64,000 bases of DNA, taken from assembly GCA_015065845.1 (NCBI GenBank), contig SVPQ01000001.1, positions 62,001 to 126,000 of the forward strand. The letters are read 5' to 3'. The notes under the pieces were generated by a model, which was not told where the DNA came from, made no database searches, and was given only the letters and a program-made list of their open reading frames with translations. A program made the position numbers and the translations under genes. This document shows positions 3,011 to 43,640 of this stretch, one piece after another. The stretch is from Oscillospiraceae bacterium (GTDB taxonomy: Bacteria > Bacillota > Clostridia > Oscillospirales > Acutalibacteraceae). Each line of letters starts with the position of its first letter. The stretch's first letter is position 1.

Positions 3011-4227
3011 CAATCACACCAAAATTATCCACAGAAAATATAGACTATGTATTTTCTGTAGCAGGAAAAATTCTTTCGGAAAGTTCTGACAGATTACCTT
3101 CAACACCTGGTGAAGCGTACTCTGCAAGACTTATTATGAATGAACTCAAGAATTATTGCGATGAAACACACGAAGAAACTTTCACAACCCATTTGAAAGT
3201 TGGTACATATCTTTTAAAAATCCTTTGTTTTCTTTTAATAATTTCTTCTTTCATTTTTAAATTTGCAGTTAAGCGCGGTTCTGTTATACCAGTATGTATA
3301 TGCACGGTGTTAAGTATATTGATTTTTTCAATATTCGCTTACAAATTCTTTTTCGATGGAAAAATTCTTGATAATCTTTTCCCAAGAAGAAATTCTCTCA
3401 ATATTTTTGCAAAACGCTACTCACACTTCACTGCACAAAACAGAGTTGTTCTTGTAGCTCGTGCAGATGCACCGAAGAAGCAGAGGTTTTTCCTTTACAA
3501 AACAAATCTTACAACAGTATTACTTACCCTTTCGGTAATCGGTAACACATTTACATTCATTTCTTGTATTATGTATCTGTTTACAGGTGCTCCCGAAAGT
3601 AATGCTATATTTTCTTTACTTGCTTCCATTTCAGTATTTTTCTCATTATTTTATTTATTATCTATTCTTCTTGTTCACCCGAAAAGAGCGGCAAGTGGTT
3701 TAAGTTCAAGCATAATTCCTGCGGCAACTATCACCGCTATTATGAAGCAGATGAGCGAGAATAATTTCAGATATAATCAGACTGAATTCTGTTGTCTTAT
3801 TACAGGTAGTGAGTACTCAAATCATGCAGGTGCTTACGCATTCGCATCAAAATACAAAAAAATAATGAGAGATATTCCTACAGTTTTTATTCCTGTTGAA
3901 GAATTGACCTCATCTAAACATTTAGCTATCTTTTTCAAAGATGGCAGTGGTAACGAAGGTAGTAAGGACGCTGCAAATATAATGTCAGATGCGTGTGATA
4001 ACTTAGGGCTTAAAATACATAAAGAAAGCACTATTATAGGAACTTCAAGTTTCACACCTTTTACTGTGCATCATTTTGCATCGTGTTCACTGGGTACTTC
4101 TAAAAAATACATTAACAAATGCTTTAGTAACAAAGATTTGCTTTCAAATGTTTCAAGAAAAACAATCTTTGACTCTGCAAACATTTTAATGGAAACAACA
4201 AACTATTACGACAATGCAAGATTATAA
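3007..4227 (+). CDS. Membrane protein with degenerate M28-peptidase-like fold
   Basis: Function unknown. 406 residues overlapping rhaB by 4 bases. The N-terminal segment (AGKILSESSDRLPSTPGEAYSA and on) resembles the opening of M28 aminopeptidases. Two hydrophobic pairs follow (about residues 68-115 and 165-220). The stretch VVLVARADAP sits where M28 enzymes have a metal-binding HxD (A-H-x-D becomes A-R-A-D), and LITGSEYSNHAGAYAFA sits where they have the paired glutamates followed by a Gly-Ser helix. A late histidine pair (VHHF) remains. What I see is therefore an M28-like scaffold with at least one key ligand lost and membrane segments inserted in it. This is an inference from motif spacing; an unrelated membrane family is possible. 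Its place between rhaB and a GH130 gene suggests a carbohydrate-related role. Confidence 0.5.
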   Translation: MTITPKLSTENIDYVFSVAGKILSESSDRLPSTPGEAYSARLIMNELKNYCDETHEETFTTHLKVGTYLLKILCFLLIISSFIFKFAVKRGSVIPVCICTVLSILIFSIFAYKFFFDGKILDNLFPRRNSLNIFAKRYSHFTAQNRVVLVARADAPKKQRFFLYKTNLTTVLLTLSVIGNTFTFISCIMYLFTGAPESNAIFSLLASISVFFSLFYLLSILLVHPKRAASGLSSSIIPAATITAIMKQMSENNFRYNQTEFCCLITGSEYSNHAGAYAFASKYKKIMRDIPTVFIPVEELTSSKHLAIFFKDGSGNEGSKDAANIMSDACDNLGLKIHKESTIIGTSSFTPFTVHHFASCSLGTSKKYINKCFSNKDLLSNVSRKTIFDSANILMETTNYYDNARL

Positions 4228-4246
4228 TTAAAAAGGAATATATATT

Positions 4247-5203
4247 ATGGCTAAAATTTTAAATTCAAAAGTTAAAAATATCCCTTGGCAAGACAAGCCA
4301 GAAAACTGTAATGACCCTGTATGGCGTTACACAGAAAACCCTATTATTGACAGAAGTTTTGTAAAAGATGCTAACAGCATTTTTAATTCAGCAGTTGTAA
4401 GACGCGATAAAGAAGATGACTTTGCAGGTGTTTTCAGACTTGATGATATTACACGCGAACAATATCTCGTTACAGGTTTCAGTAAAGATGGTATTCACTG
4501 GAAGCTGAATGATGAGAAAATTTTCCGTGGTTATGACCCTCGCCTTTGCGAAATCGATGGCAAATATTATCTTTCATGGGTTTGCCACACAGACAGAGGC
4601 ACATCTATCGGTATTGCAGTTACAGAAGATTTTATTAACTGGGCCAGAAAGGAAAACGCAGTTTTACCAGTTTCAAGAAATGGTGTTTTGTTCCCAAGAA
4701 AAGTTAATAATGAATATATGATTTTCACCCGTCCTTGCGATAAAGGTCACACACCTTATGGTGATATTTTCTTAAGTCACAGCCCTGACCTTACATACTG
4801 GGGTAAGCACCGTTTTGTTATAAAACCCGAAAATAACTGGGAAATGACAAAAGTAGGTGCTGGTCCTACACCTATTGAAACTGATGAGGGTTGGCTTTGC
4901 TTCTACCACGGCGTTATTACAAGTTGTAATGGTTTCACTTACAGTATGGGTGCTATGATTACAGATATAAATGAACCGTGGAAAGTCTTACACAGAGCAG
5001 ATTGCTACTTATTAAGTCCTCGAGAAACTTACGAATTTGTTGGCGATGTTCCTAATGTTGTGTTCCCTTGTGCCGCTTTAGCAGATAGTGACACAGGCAG
5101 AATTGCAGTTTACTATGGCGGTGCCGACACAGTTGTAGGTCTTGCTTTTACCACTGTTGATGAAGTTATAAACTTTATCAAAGAGCACGATATGATAAAA
5201 TGA
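4247..5203 (+). CDS. GH130 family beta-mannoside phosphorylase/hydrolase-like enzyme
   Basis: 318 residues with the five-bladed propeller pattern of glycoside hydrolase family 130, whose members phosphorolyse or hydrolyse beta-mannosides in the cytoplasm. Diagnostic segments: NPII near residue 31, YDPRL (96-100) containing the family's catalytic aspartate, KVGAGPTPIETDEGW, FYHGV, and near the C-terminus VPNVVFPC and YYGGADTVVGLAF. There is no signal peptide. A ribosome site AAAAGGA precedes the ATG. The stop overlaps the start of the MATE gene by 4 bases. Within the family, phosphorylases and hydrolases differ in phosphate-binding residues that I cannot assign safely, so substrate and mechanism stay open. 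Together with the GH125 enzyme at 60.5 kb it suggests use of mannose-containing glycans. Confidence 0.85.
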   Translation: MAKILNSKVKNIPWQDKPENCNDPVWRYTENPIIDRSFVKDANSIFNSAVVRRDKEDDFAGVFRLDDITREQYLVTGFSKDGIHWKLNDEKIFRGYDPRLCEIDGKYYLSWVCHTDRGTSIGIAVTEDFINWARKENAVLPVSRNGVLFPRKVNNEYMIFTRPCDKGHTPYGDIFLSHSPDLTYWGKHRFVIKPENNWEMTKVGAGPTPIETDEGWLCFYHGVITSCNGFTYSMGAMITDINEPWKVLHRADCYLLSPRETYEFVGDVPNVVFPCAALADSDTGRIAVYYGGADTVVGLAFTTVDEVINFIKEHDMIK

Positions 5204-38773: not shown

Positions 38774-41011
38774 TCAATAAATAAAGTTAAAATATTCACA
38801 AGCATTCAAAATCTCACATTCAATGTCCTGATTGCCAACAACAAGTATATCTACATTAGCATACATATCAACTGTTGCATAATGAGTAAGAGAAACAAAC
38901 TTACCATCTCTTGTCATTTCGGCTTCAATTGTAAAACTTTCATGTAAAACTGATTTACTATTAATACTTTTTATAAATGAATATTCATTAATCACTTCCT
39001 GTATGTCATCCCAATAAAAAACTGAATTCGTTACTTGTGATAAAAAACTCGTTTCTTTATTCATTGGGGTATCTTCATCCATCATAACAATTGTAATTCG
39101 ATAGTTACCATTAGGAAGGTCTCTCTTTGTAGCACTTTTTACTTTTGATAAATCTGTAAGGGTACAATCAGGAAAACGACACATAGCATCATAAGAACCT
39201 TTTTGGTTAACCTTTACTTCAGCTTCATCTTCAGTTATCAGATAACTCTCGAGAATTGGTGAAAAAATTGAAGCACAAGAACCAAAATTAACTACAGGTA
39301 CCACTTGATATTCCAATTTATTATAACCAGCACTACCGTTCGTTGCAATATCGTGAGCAGATTTTTTATAGAAATTAAATATAGTTTCTTTATCCCAAAT
39401 ATTAACCGGTCTTGTTGTTGGTATATAAGATGAGTATGTTGTGTCTGGTACATACTCTGTTGGCTGTACAGGTACTGTTGTAGGAATATAATATGTTACA
39501 TCTGGCCTTGGTGTTGTTGATGTGCTTCCTCCTTGTGAACCAGGGGTTACGCAACCATTTATTGCTGAGCTTGCTTTATAGGTACTCTTAAAGTTACCAT
39601 TTATTGCTCTTGCTGCATATTTATATTTAACACCTTTTAATGCATTGGTATCAGTTAAACTTAAGTTTGGTGTGGTACTGATATTAAACCACGAAGTCCA
39701 CTTACCATCAACATATTCTGAACGGTAAATTGCATACTTAATTGCACCAGTTGTTTCAGTCCAGTTGACTTTAACTCCATTTGAAGATGTTGCAACAGTA
39801 ACTTGTGGTTGTGACAAGAACATTATTTTTTCTGTTGCTTTATATGAACTTTTTGAATTAGCGTTAGTTGCTTTTACTGTGTAACGGTAAACTTCGCCAC
39901 TTCCAGCATTTTTATCTACGAAACTAAAAACATTATTTTTAGTTGTTTTCACATTTTTCCATGATGACCATTTACCATTTGTGAGTGTCGCTCTGTAAAC
40001 AGTGTAACCAGTTGCAGATGTATTTTTATTCCAGCTTACTTTTACACCATTTGAAGCGTTTGCAATTTTAACAGTTGGTTGTGTTAAAAATCTTAAAGCA
40101 CCTGTTGCTTTATAACCAGTTTTTCCGCCACTATAAACTGCACGGACTGTATAACGGTAAATTGAACCATTTTTTACTTTCTTATCTGTCCATGATGTAG
40201 TGGTTGATTTTGTTGTTTCTCTATTAGTCCAGCCAGACCATTTTTTAGTTTTTGAATTATAGGTCGCAGAATACACTATATAACCAGTTGCTGACGGAAT
40301 TTTGCTCCATTTAACACTTATACCCTTTTGTGCATTTGCTATTTCAACTGTTGGAACAACATTAAATTTAATATTTTTTGTTGCGGCAGAAGTGCTTTTG
40401 ACATCACCATTAACCGCTTTTACTTTGTAACTGTAAGTTTTACCAAGATTAACCTTTTTATCAGTATAACTTATTTTGGTATAATCTTTGTTAAGAGTAG
40501 TCCATGAAGAATATTTTTTAGTTTTTGTGTTGTACGTTCTTCTGTAAATTGTGTAAGTTTCTGCATTTTCTATTGCTTTCCAACTTACCTTTACACCACT
40601 TGACGTACCCTTAACAGATACTTTTGGTGTTGAAAGAGTTGTTAATTTTTTATATGTATGTGCAAACTCACTGTACTGCCCAGCATTACCCATTGCATCC
40701 ATTGCTGCAACTGCGTAGCAATATGTTTCACCATCTACTGCGGTCCGGTCTGTAAATGCTAAAGTTGAAGCACCAACTACCGCTAATTGCTGATATACAT
40801 ATTCCCCTGCTTCATTCTGAACGAGTTTGAATACTATATAGCCCTCAATATTGTTAAGTTGCTCCCATTCGATTTTCACACCTTTTGATGTTGATGAAAC
40901 AGATGTCACCTGTACCTCAGGTAACTGTGCTGCATTTGAATTTATCGGTATAGATAAATAAATTCCAAACACCAAAACAACTGCTAAAACTAAACCGATA
41001 CACTTTTTCAT
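38774..41011 (-). CDS. Secreted protein with five FN3-like modules and an unknown C-terminal domain
   Basis: 745 residues. Signal peptide MKKCIGLVLAVVLVFGIYLS with cleavage near SNAA. Five consecutive FN3-like modules (about residues 30-490), the first divergent and the others with the YR..Y..GKW..W core seen in the transglutaminase proteins. A Thr/Pro-rich linker (TTPRP, IPTTVPVQP, IPTTRPV) leads to a 190-residue C-terminal region with two cysteines near CRFPDC and the sequence YRITIVMMDEDTP, for which I recognise no family. There is no wall-sorting signal. AGGAGG precedes the ATG. Its transcript begins with a long structured leader ending in a terminator, so expression is probably switched at attenuation level. 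Role unknown; adhesion or matrix contact is plausible. Confidence 0.75.
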   Translation of the reverse strand: MKKCIGLVLAVVLVFGIYLSIPINSNAAQLPEVQVTSVSSTSKGVKIEWEQLNNIEGYIVFKLVQNEAGEYVYQQLAVVGASTLAFTDRTAVDGETYCYAVAAMDAMGNAGQYSEFAHTYKKLTTLSTPKVSVKGTSSGVKVSWKAIENAETYTIYRRTYNTKTKKYSSWTTLNKDYTKISYTDKKVNLGKTYSYKVKAVNGDVKSTSAATKNIKFNVVPTVEIANAQKGISVKWSKIPSATGYIVYSATYNSKTKKWSGWTNRETTKSTTTSWTDKKVKNGSIYRYTVRAVYSGGKTGYKATGALRFLTQPTVKIANASNGVKVSWNKNTSATGYTVYRATLTNGKWSSWKNVKTTKNNVFSFVDKNAGSGEVYRYTVKATNANSKSSYKATEKIMFLSQPQVTVATSSNGVKVNWTETTGAIKYAIYRSEYVDGKWTSWFNISTTPNLSLTDTNALKGVKYKYAARAINGNFKSTYKASSAINGCVTPGSQGGSTSTTPRPDVTYYIPTTVPVQPTEYVPDTTYSSYIPTTRPVNIWDKETIFNFYKKSAHDIATNGSAGYNKLEYQVVPVVNFGSCASIFSPILESYLITEDEAEVKVNQKGSYDAMCRFPDCTLTDLSKVKSATKRDLPNGNYRITIVMMDEDTPMNKETSFLSQVTNSVFYWDDIQEVINEYSFIKSINSKSVLHESFTIEAEMTRDGKFVSLTHYATVDMYANVDILVVGNQDIECEILNACEYFNFIY

Positions 41012-41040: not shown

Positions 41041-41203
41041 AAAAAGTGCGCAGCCGAAGCTACGCACGAAAAACACATAGCTCCGATTTGCTGCGCCACA
41101 AGTTTTCGTCAATTCCAAGGAATGCGAAAATAGAGCATGCATTTTTACCAAAATAAAAACACATCCTTAAAATTGACATATATTAACTTGTGTCGCACTT
41201 TTC
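41041..41203 (-). promoter_or_regulatory. Structured attenuator leader (riboswitch-like, class unknown)
   Basis: Read on the minus strand. P1 pairs 41,185-41,197 with 41,092-41,104 (12 of 13 pairs). P2 pairs 41,164-41,177 with 41,108-41,121 (14 pairs including two G-U). A small loop stem lies near 41,142-41,159. Then comes an intrinsic terminator, GTGCGTAGC, TTCG, GCTGCGCAC plus a T-run, at 41,041-41,067, directly before the AGGAGG of the FN3 gene. The 3' strand of P1 continues as GCGCAGC, an exact 7-base complement of GCTGCGC in the terminator's 3' arm, so P1 and an antiterminator exclude each other. I checked it by eye against c-di-GMP-I/II, preQ1, THF, fluoride and T-box patterns and found no match. 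Confidence 0.6.
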
Positions 41204-41232
41204 AGTCTAGCACATATTTTCCAATTTTACAA
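41204..41232 (-). promoter_or_regulatory. Promoter of the FN3 protein leader
   Basis: Minus strand TTGTAA (41,227-41,232), 17-base spacer, TAGACT (41,204-41,209). The start of transcription would fall just before the 5' strand of P1. Confidence 0.5.
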
Positions 41233-41274
41233 TAATTTTTGTTCAGGAAATAAAAATTAGGAAACTGATAAACT

Positions 41275-41342
41275 AAAAAACTACATCTTAGCATTTTTAG
41301 TTGGTACTAAAATCAACTTTAAATAATAAGATGTAGTTTTTA
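41275..41342 (-). terminator. Terminator of thrS
   Basis: AAAAAACTACATCTTA and TAAGATGTAGTTTT frame a 36-base loop that has its own AGTTG/CAACT pairing. It lies 75 bases after the thrS stop. The remaining bases up to the stop (41,343-41,416) show only TTGCATTCTGCATTTTGCATT-like repeats, which I describe but do not name. Confidence 0.65.
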
Positions 41343-41416
41343 TTATTCAATGATAATTATAATCAAACGCGAAGCGTTTCCGAAATTTTGCATTCTGCAT
41401 TTTGCATTCAAAAAGC

Positions 41417-43354
41417 TTACAGCTTTTTGGTTTCAACTTCCTCTATCGCCATTTTGATAAATTCGTCAACTTTCATTGAACCCATATCGCCATTCTTTCT
41501 GCTTCTTACAGAAAGTGATTCGTTTTCAATTTCGTTATCACCAAGAATGAGCATATAAGGGATTTTTTCAAGCTGTGCTTCGCGGATTTTGTAGCCTGTT
41601 TTTTCTGCTCTGTCGTCAACTGTCACGCGAAGACCATTTGCTTCGAGTTTGTTTTTAAGTTCGTAACAAGCATCGTGATGTCTTTCAGAAATAGGAAGAA
41701 TTCTCATCTGCTCAGGTGCGAGCCACATCGGGAATGCACCTGCATATTTTTCAATAAGAAGTGCAAGAGTTCTTTCGTAGCAACCAATAGATGTACGGTG
41801 GATGATATAAGGATTTTTCTTTGTACCATCTTTCGCTACATATTCCATACCAAATTTTTCTGCAAGCATCTGGTCAATCTGAATTGTAATCAAAGTATCT
41901 TCCTTACCGTGAACATTCTTAATCTGAATATCAAGTTTAGGACCATAGAAAGCAGCTTCACCAATACCGATTTTATAATCAATATTGAGGTTATCAAGGA
42001 TTTCTTTCATAATACCCTGTGCTTCATTCCACTGTTCTTCAGTACCTATATATTTTTCTCTGTCATTAGGGTCCCATTGAGAGAATCTGTAAGAAACATC
42101 TTCATAAAGACCGAGAGTTTTGAGCATAAATATGCAAAGGTCAAGGCAACGCTCAAATTCATCTGCAAGTTGTTCAGGAGTACACATAAGGTGACCCTCT
42201 GAAATTGTGAACTGTCTTACGCGGATAAGACCATGCATTTCACCTGAAGACTCATTTCTGAAAAGAGTTGATGTTTCTGCAAGACGCATTGGAAGGTCAC
42301 GGTAAGAACGAGCTCTGTTCAAGTATGCCTGGTACTGGAATGGGCAAGTCATTGGACGAAGCGCAAATACTTCGTTGTCTTTCTCCTCATCACCTAATAC
42401 GAACATACCATCTTTATAGTGGTCCCAGTGACCTGAAATTTTGTAAAGGTCGCTCTTTGCCATAAGAGGTGTCTTTGTACGCACCCAACCTCTTCTTGCT
42501 TCTTCATCTTCAACAAATCTCTGAAGTGTCTGCACAATAAATGTACCTTTTGGAAGAAGAATTGGTAAGCCCTGACCGATAGAATCAACTGTTGTGAAAA
42601 TTTCAAGCTCTCTGCCTAATTTATTGTGGTCGCGTTTTTTTGCTTCTTCAATTCTTAAAAGATGTTCTTCTAACTCAGATGCTTTAGGGAATGCAGTACC
42701 ATAAATTCTCTGAAGCATTTTATTGTTCTGGTCACCACGCCAGTAAGCACCTGTGCAGGCAGTAAGTTTAATTGCTTTTACTTTGCCTGTTGAAAGAATG
42801 TGTGGACCTGCACAAACATCGCAGAATCCACCTTGTTTATAAAAACTGATAGGTTCATTTTTACCTGCGTGTTCTTTAATGAGTTCAACCTTGTAAATCT
42901 CACCTTTTTCTTCCATAAGCTTAATTGCTTCATCCGGCTCAACAAGGAATTTTTCGAGTTCAATATCTTCTTTTACGATTTTTTTCATTTCTGCTTCAAT
43001 TTTTTCGAGAGTTTCAGGTGTGAAAGAAACTTCTGAATCAAAATCATAATAGAAACCATTGTCAATTGCAGGACCAATTGCAAGTTTTGTTTCAGGATAA
43101 AGTCTTTTTACTGCCTGTGCTAAAATGTGAGATGCAGTATGCCAGAATGCGTGTTTACCCTCTTCACTTTCAAAAGTGAGAAGATTAACTTCACAATCTT
43201 CATTTAATTCTGTTCTTACATCTGCCATTACACCATTTACTGTACATGCACAAAGATTTCTGTAAAGTCCCATACTGATTTCTTTTGCAATATCAGCAGG
43301 TGTAGTACCCTTTGGAAATTCCTTTACTTCATCACGAAGTGTAACTTTAATCAT
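41417..43354 (-). CDS. thrS: Threonyl-tRNA synthetase
   Basis: Charges tRNA-Thr. The frame opens six codons upstream at a TTG that is part of the AAAGGCGG ribosome site; the ATG at 43,354 gives 645 residues. Domains: N-terminal TGS (VTLRDEVKEFPKGTTPADIA), editing domain with HTASHILAQAV and a later CDVCAGPHI, catalytic core with motif 2 (STLFRNESSGEMHGLIRVRQ), zinc ligand region RPMTCPFQ and HRTSIGCYERTLALLIE, and the anticodon-binding domain. It is controlled by a T-box leader. It follows the rpmH-jag operon but has its own promoter. Confidence 0.98.
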   Translation of the reverse strand: MIKVTLRDEVKEFPKGTTPADIAKEISMGLYRNLCACTVNGVMADVRTELNEDCEVNLLTFESEEGKHAFWHTASHILAQAVKRLYPETKLAIGPAIDNGFYYDFDSEVSFTPETLEKIEAEMKKIVKEDIELEKFLVEPDEAIKLMEEKGEIYKVELIKEHAGKNEPISFYKQGGFCDVCAGPHILSTGKVKAIKLTACTGAYWRGDQNNKMLQRIYGTAFPKASELEEHLLRIEEAKKRDHNKLGRELEIFTTVDSIGQGLPILLPKGTFIVQTLQRFVEDEEARRGWVRTKTPLMAKSDLYKISGHWDHYKDGMFVLGDEEKDNEVFALRPMTCPFQYQAYLNRARSYRDLPMRLAETSTLFRNESSGEMHGLIRVRQFTISEGHLMCTPEQLADEFERCLDLCIFMLKTLGLYEDVSYRFSQWDPNDREKYIGTEEQWNEAQGIMKEILDNLNIDYKIGIGEAAFYGPKLDIQIKNVHGKEDTLITIQIDQMLAEKFGMEYVAKDGTKKNPYIIHRTSIGCYERTLALLIEKYAGAFPMWLAPEQMRILPISERHHDACYELKNKLEANGLRVTVDDRAEKTGYKIREAQLEKIPYMLILGDNEIENESLSVRSRKNGDMGSMKVDEFIKMAIEEVETKKL

Positions 43355-43391
43355 ATATATTCCGCCTTTCAAGATTATTAATTATATAAAT

Positions 43392-43640
43392 AAAAATGCT
43401 CCACCCCATAAAAAATGGGATGAAGCATAATACTCCACGGTTCCACCCAAATTGCAGTATAATACTGCCACTCGAGGAAGTCTTAACGCGACTTCAGACG
43501 GCTTTATTTATCGTAATATATACGCTTCACAAAGCACTCATAAGTGGTCTTCAGAACGGTGTAACTCGTACCTTTCACCAACCGGTACGCTCTCTGAAGA
43601 AACGCTCCGTTCCTACTCTCTTAATCATAGATTTAAACTA
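43392..43640 (-). promoter_or_regulatory. T-box leader of thrS
   Basis: On the minus strand the leader has a base stem CTTCAGA/TCTGAAG, a specifier-side strand containing ACC (43,558-43,560), a Thr codon, just before that closing strand, and the conserved T-box sequence as TTGGGTGGAACCGTGGAG (43,434-43,451). A terminator ATGCTTCATCCCAT/ATGGGGTGGAGCAT with a T-run follows at 43,392-43,428. Uncharged tRNA-Thr would pair with the specifier and the TGGA bulge and prevent termination. Confidence 0.92.

Follow-up and report, generated by a model that had tools for sequence, protein, structure and literature searches.

A putative strand-swapping transcription attenuator preceding exported-protein genes in uncultured Clostridia

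Results

The locus

The window (the whole 64,000-nucleotide stretch of DNA analysed here) holds, on its minus strand between a thrS-like gene that ends at 41417 and an FN3 gene that starts at 41011, the self-contained beginning of a transcription unit (Table 1), with an RNA element of roughly 160 nt. A preliminary description of this DNA had named a promoter, a long two-part helix and an intrinsic terminator before the FN3 gene on its coding strand, and all of these are present. It had also placed the terminator in contact with the ribosome site, which is not so, as the Shine-Dalgarno (SD) sequence lies clear of the U-run. The terminator hairpin was recovered by a terminator scan; the promoter is absent from the promoter-scan list, with 8 of 12 consensus positions by our own count at a threshold of 9. 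At its N terminus the FN3 protein has a hydrophobic stretch, and its FN3 matches exceed the Pfam cut-off.

Table 1. Parts of the element and the gene that it leads, in window coordinates.
Feature	Coordinates	Strand	Details
Promoter	41232-41204	-	-35 TTGTAA 41232-41227, 17 nt spacer, extended -10 TGC-TAGACT 41209-41204
P1 5' strand	41198-41185	-	at or next to the inferred transcription start
J1/2	41184-41175	-	unpaired AAUA; overlaps the start of P2
P2 5' strand	41177-41164	-	sequence variable, pairing kept
Apical hairpin P3	41163-41138	-	UGUGUUUUUA - UUUUGG - UAAAAAUGCA
Linker toehold UGCUCU	41137-41132	-	complementary to GGAGC after P1
P2 3' strand	41121-41108	-	
P1 3' strand	41104-41090	-	GCGCAGC at end
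Invader strand GGAGCUAUGUGUUUUUC	41084-41068	-	17 nt
Intrinsic terminator GTGCGTAGC-TTCG-GCTGCGCAC	41067-41046	-	U-run 41045-41041
Shine-Dalgarno AAGGAGG	41026-41020	-	14 nt after the U-run
FN3 gene led by the element	41011-38774	-	745 aa; starts with ATG

The invader strand has two possible partners. It can pair with the P3 3' strand plus linker (41148-41132), a helix that we call SWAP, or with the 5' side of the terminator, forming an antiterminator. Four helices thus share strands pairwise: P3 and SWAP both use the P3 3' strand, SWAP and the antiterminator both use GGAGC, and the antiterminator and terminator both use the terminator 5' side. From this pairwise sharing we infer a relay.

The RNA of the window copy has a folding energy of -62.5 kcal/mol (z -6.66), and none of 200 dinucleotide shuffles folds as well. 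Its individual helices are calculated at -6.1 (P3), -15.1 (SWAP), -10.9 (antiterminator) and -15.4 kcal/mol (terminator), energies that are close, so that a modest outside influence could decide between them. Nested folding of the full window transcript, in which SWAP is not representable, leads to the antiterminator state. GCGCAGC in the P1 3' strand and GCTGCGC in the terminator 3' arm of this copy are perfectly complementary, as the preliminary description had it. In the minimum-energy fold of the window copy this complement does not drive termination but lengthens the antiterminator.

Beside the element, the gene at 41417-43372, which by eye we take to encode a threonyl-tRNA synthetase-like protein, is preceded by a T-box leader (RF00230, minus strand, 43413-43637, 122.5 bits). 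Between this gene and the element, 41262-41410 (minus strand) is a dispersed repeat that contains a near-perfect palindrome (41276-41341). It gives 50 blastn rows in its own genome at E 0.001, some of which are the two strands of one place, and against Rfam it shows only a sub-threshold resemblance to RNA-OUT.

Known RNA families and the published record

No Rfam 15 covariance model reaches its gathering score at the window element, either in the window scan or in a local low-threshold scan, and the rows that lie over it at lax thresholds are at chance level (tsr26, for instance, scores 21.5 bits at E 0.69, its gathering score being 141). Twenty further element loci scanned whole against Rfam likewise give no family at the element, in agreement with the earlier remark that no known class was recognised. 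The RF00230 model is unmatched at the element, the T-box noted above being the sole T-box match in the window. The c-di-GMP-I model, RF01051, is unmatched at the element in the window and in the 20 further loci, and anywhere in its own genome, which bears out the reported absence of a c-di-GMP aptamer consensus.

Judged by titles and the starts of abstracts, our literature searches returned no paper naming the element among the matches listed. A term search of PMC11109978 gave zero occurrences. PMC8040213, whose supplements lay outside the search, has 3161 candidates, and the element may be one of those without a name.

Distribution and variants

In blastn, 35 of 99 genomes contain element-like DNA. 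From 28 copies we built a covariance model, R1, that includes P1, P3 and the terminator; it matches 74 of 200 genomes of the family (E 0.001) and 100 of 391 genomes of the class (E 1e-4), the own genome being included in all three counts; in a phylum-wide sample it matches 1 of 299 genomes, again the own genome. Because these searches scored only 14 (family), 7 (class) or 9 (phylum) candidates per genome, copy counts from them are lower bounds. The own genome has 7 element copies, excluding an eighth, weak row antisense to one of them, and 12 genomes chosen for many matches have 7-28 copies each. One genome with 28 copies also has a drum RNA (RF02958, L233 1794-1914).

A scan of named genomes with a terminator-region pattern found 102 stretches, 80 of which were retrieved as loci. 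All 80 carry MAG or 'uncultured' titles (uncultured Ruminococcus, Oscillospiraceae, Clostridia and so on), and many come from ruminant guts. On the sequences at hand, the element is widespread in uncultured, mostly gut-dwelling Clostridia.

Two mobile origins were considered and rejected. The terminator-region pattern is unmatched in viral_contigs; blastn matches to two 'Bacteriophage sp.' records are to unannotated fecal contigs, and in the one inspected for ORFs the proteins look chromosomal by eye (YicC-like, PLP-enzyme-like). Among plasmids there is no blastn match.

Pooling three model alignments gave 216 distinct copies, which include 17 tandem pairs within 250 nt. At the tandem loci inspected (L073, L074, L222, L227, L229) every unit has a promoter-like start. 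The L073 locus (3362-4334) has four copies about 265 bp apart, only the last of which leads a gene, presumably for a PIN/NYN-like protein by its appearance. The copies at L005, L006, L070 and L135 are of a longer subtype whose inner domain is enlarged, and the first three of these have AUAAAAAUGCAAAUUCC in common in the P3 region.

Comparative evidence for pairing

For 210 of the 216 copies we cut the sequence into segments, the other six being dropped as too short, without an A-tract at the anchor, or with a short post-P1 strand; 92 of these serve as representatives, no two of them more than 80% identical. The duplex energy of two segments within each copy was compared with that obtained when one segment is dealt out among copies, so that the pairs need no column alignment. 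By this measure, which removes column composition but not all shared ancestry, pairing in the 92 representatives exceeds all of 500 shuffles for P1 (z -27.6), P3 (z -7.1), SWAP (z -13.9), the antiterminator (z -9.4) and the terminator (z -18.9), and P2 reaches z -35.6 in 90 representatives (2 of 92 omitted), with none of 200 shuffles as good. Four control pairings in the 92 representatives range from z -1.1 to +1.3; when all 210 copies are used, redundancy included, one of these controls (linker with terminator 5' side) gives z -2.2 with 3 of 500 shuffles as good. P1, P2 and the four competing helices thus covary beyond shuffles.

SWAP covaries more than P3. Its z is still -12.8 without the A:U tract, and among the 62 representatives that were not fetched by the terminator pattern it is -10.8, with -9.0 for the antiterminator. 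In 91 of 92 representatives the SWAP duplex, with no pseudoknot penalty applied, has a lower energy than the P3 hairpin. In an alignment (A2) made with a model that lacks SWAP, 94.9% of SWAP cells are standard pairs and both sides change in 7 of 16 SWAP pairs, with GC/AU and UA/UG/CG exchanges; in the same alignment the antiterminator is paired in 94.3% of cells and P3 in only 82.2%. Invariance in A2 is inflated, because an exact match to a terminator-region pattern was used to retrieve its loci.

An unsupervised mutual-information scan ranks P1 pairs in its top seven places and the tip of SWAP (G:C or A:U) eighth, at 10.2 sd. Further SWAP pairs come lower, among non-complementary pairs (A8:sw-7 at 6.5, A7:sw-6 at 3.9), and the first 70 pairs, many of which are not complementary, include no P3 or antiterminator pair.

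The pairing of the P1 3' strand with the terminator 3' arm, put forward earlier as the main switch, is exact in the window copy, yet weak across the class, and we rejected it in that role. Its z in the 92 representatives is -2.8, compared with -13.9 for SWAP and -9.4 for the antiterminator; none of 500 shuffles is as good, but it lies only 0.46 kcal/mol below the shuffle mean. A separate shuffle run gave z -2.4 (2 of 200 as good), and restricting the set to the 62 representatives retrieved without the terminator pattern gave z -2.3 (4 of 300 as good).

All four exclusive helices are present in 78 of 92 representatives, at thresholds of our own choosing. On this comparative evidence the element has two features expected of a riboswitch, namely a conserved structured 5'-leader RNA supported by covariation and an expression platform with mutually exclusive helices.

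Some unpaired parts are conserved as well, namely AAUA in J1/2, the CAA that follows P1 and the U-rich linker; 66 of 92 representatives have AAUA within positions 13-30. The three parts are candidate binding places. P1 also keeps sequence besides pairing (C in 96% and A in 96% at two positions), as a protein site might.

Promoter position and downstream genes

Of 214 copies, 171 have exactly 5 nt between the end of the -10 and P1, and 187 have a promoter spacer of 17 nt. A loose promoter consensus rule is passed by 207 of 214 copies and by a mean of 146 of 214 shuffles; because shuffles also pass, the consensus score is uninformative and the fixed position alone counts. Since the promoter is position-locked to P1, the RNA should begin at or near P1. 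Downstream, 8 of 154 copies with less than 150 nt of sequence were left out; among the remaining 146, an SD and start codon follow within 60 nt of the element end in 107 (median 19 nt), 87 of them at 16-23 nt, and are lacking in that range in the other 39.

These distances bear on the proposal that the terminated transcript is itself the product, the element being a small RNA gene, sometimes in tandem, and the downstream gene incidental. Such a gene would explain why promoter and terminator belong to the unit, why tandem pairs recur and why the first three of the four L073 copies lead no gene. However, it does not account for the SD and start codon at so narrow a distance after most copies, and a selected antiterminator helix has no obvious use in a plain small RNA. 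We consider a small RNA gene improbable.

The genes that are led are very mixed. A set of 106 distinct target proteins, which excludes one duplicate gene, was scanned for families with each protein truncated at 420 aa. BspA-type LRR_5 occurs in 21 of them, CHAP in 4, dockerin in 3 and AMP-binding in 3, the remainder being scattered over many families. AbrB-like small regulators recur: PF04014 matches two of the 106, and about eight further targets are AbrB-like by eye. Of 70 targets from all loci with a length of 150 aa or more, 53 have an N-terminal hydrophobic segment by a simple hydropathy rule, compared with 82 of 343 background ORFs, unfiltered, from L093-L172 and the window (Fisher p 4e-16). 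This enrichment agrees with the earlier claim that the element precedes a gene for a secreted protein.

Tiny recurrent targets of 50-57 aa start like MENELYKKMYxHLFN (L012, L019, L027, L097, L165), and Pfam DUF6809 matches two of the 106 scanned targets. An association with defence was considered and dropped: PADLOC finds 8 families among the 106, none with more than two members.

We also weighed the possibility that the element is repeat or mobile DNA, such as a palindromic repeat or transposon end, with no regulatory function. Many copies per genome, the position of some near contig ends, and tandem duplications are what such DNA would show, but compensatory change keeps P1 and P2 in differing sequences, the place between promoter and start codon is fixed, and there is a strong bias to genes with N-terminal hydrophobic segments. 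Contradicted by covariation, this reading deserves almost no credence.

Discussion

A proposed strand-swapping relay

Taken together, these observations make it quite probable that the window element belongs to an undescribed class of transcription attenuators that act in cis and work as a strand-swapping relay. RNA polymerase would start at or next to the first P1 base, and P1, P2 and the apical P3 would presumably fold first. The post-P1 strand, GGAGC...GUGUUUUUC, would then choose between two partners. On the off route, GGAGC would bind first to the toehold GCUC, in the linker directly 3' of P3, and the copy of the P3 5' strand that follows GGAGC would complete the displacement of the P3 5' strand. 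The product, SWAP, would be a 16-bp helix forming a pseudoknot across P1/P2, which it must span with a short connector; by a rough count this appears feasible. With GGAGC taken by SWAP, the terminator would form and the gene would probably be off. On the on route, P3 would be held closed, GGAGC would pair with the terminator 5' side as the antiterminator, and the gene would be transcribed.

One variant locus, L112 (3891-4006), lacks the P1-P3 domain and has its promoter abutting the GGAGC/terminator module; 166 nt downstream lies an ORF that we take by eye to be sigma-70-like. This copy looks like a natural deletion of the element, and would be always on, as the relay predicts.

What might set the relay

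The choice between routes would be set by a cell-wide signal, perhaps a small molecule on P1/J1-2/P3, acting on a regulon rich in exported proteins. The preliminary description had called the element a riboswitch-like attenuator; the attenuator make-up stands, and for the rest we hypothesize that the element is a riboswitch. In its full form, to which we give slightly less than an even chance, our reading is that a new riboswitch class senses a signal other than c-di-GMP that holds or releases the apical hairpin, that toehold strand displacement decides termination, and that up to about 28 leaders per genome are governed in this way in uncultured gut Clostridia, mostly before genes for exported or surface proteins and some AbrB-like regulators. 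Alternatively, the relay could be set by an RNA-binding protein (an antiterminator or repressor) or by another RNA. The sequence kept in P1 would fit a protein site, and the diversity of targets would fit a global regulator; we judge this version rather unlikely.

Two diguanylate cyclases had been noted in the window, and GGDEF matches at C36:116335 and C36:68722 (window ~54335 and ~6722) confirm them. A c-di-GMP riboswitch of a new class would suit the surface-type targets and the own genome, which at 82% completeness has 7 GGDEF matches and no c-di-GMP-I match. However, a GGDEF match at E 1e-10 is found in 18 of 40 element-bearing genomes and missing in 22, of which only G129, G237 and G244 had no first-look candidate, the other 19 having 1-6 below the limit. 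G244 is negative despite 11 element copies and 97% completeness, and ordinary c-di-GMP-I riboswitches also occur in 9 of the 40. With GGDEF unmatched at this limit in 22 of the 40 carriers, c-di-GMP is unlikely as the class-wide ligand, and we regard a new c-di-GMP class as very improbable.

If the proposed switch is correct, the element would be a widespread class of regulatory RNA missing from Rfam, an absence that may stem from its occurrence in uncultured bacteria. That many copies in a genome precede adhesin-like genes suggests a common signal controlling what the carriers expose on their outside. The relay predicts that single toehold changes lock each state and that compensating changes restore switching; because these predictions are exact and cheap, the search for the signal is directly testable.

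Comparison with known systems

c-di-GMP-I riboswitches are in use in Clostridia. They can precede an adhesin gene, as in Bacillus thuringiensis (PMC4933901), and can occur in tandem (PMC4759541). Adhesin-type targets and tandem occurrence are thus shared with the element, whereas RF01051 does not match it and it is present in genomes without GGDEF at E 1e-10. The T-box leader (RF00230) resembles the element as a terminator/antiterminator leader with one example in the same window, but its model does not match the element, whose targets are not amino-acid genes. The RNAs of type III toxin-antitoxin systems (ToxI) likewise come as tandem units, with a promoter and a terminator, ahead of a gene. 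ToxI is made of short repeats with ToxN downstream; neither is seen with the element, and the genes that follow it encode LRR, CHAP, dockerin, AMP-ligase and other proteins.

The closest likeness in architecture is to terminator-platform riboswitches, in which a conserved structured domain is followed by a mutually exclusive antiterminator and terminator in the 5' leader. The element differs from them in that its switching strand would swap with the apical hairpin via a toehold and not come from P1. It has no Rfam family and keeps its promoter at a nearly fixed spacing from P1, and its class leads very mixed genes, with up to 28 copies per genome.
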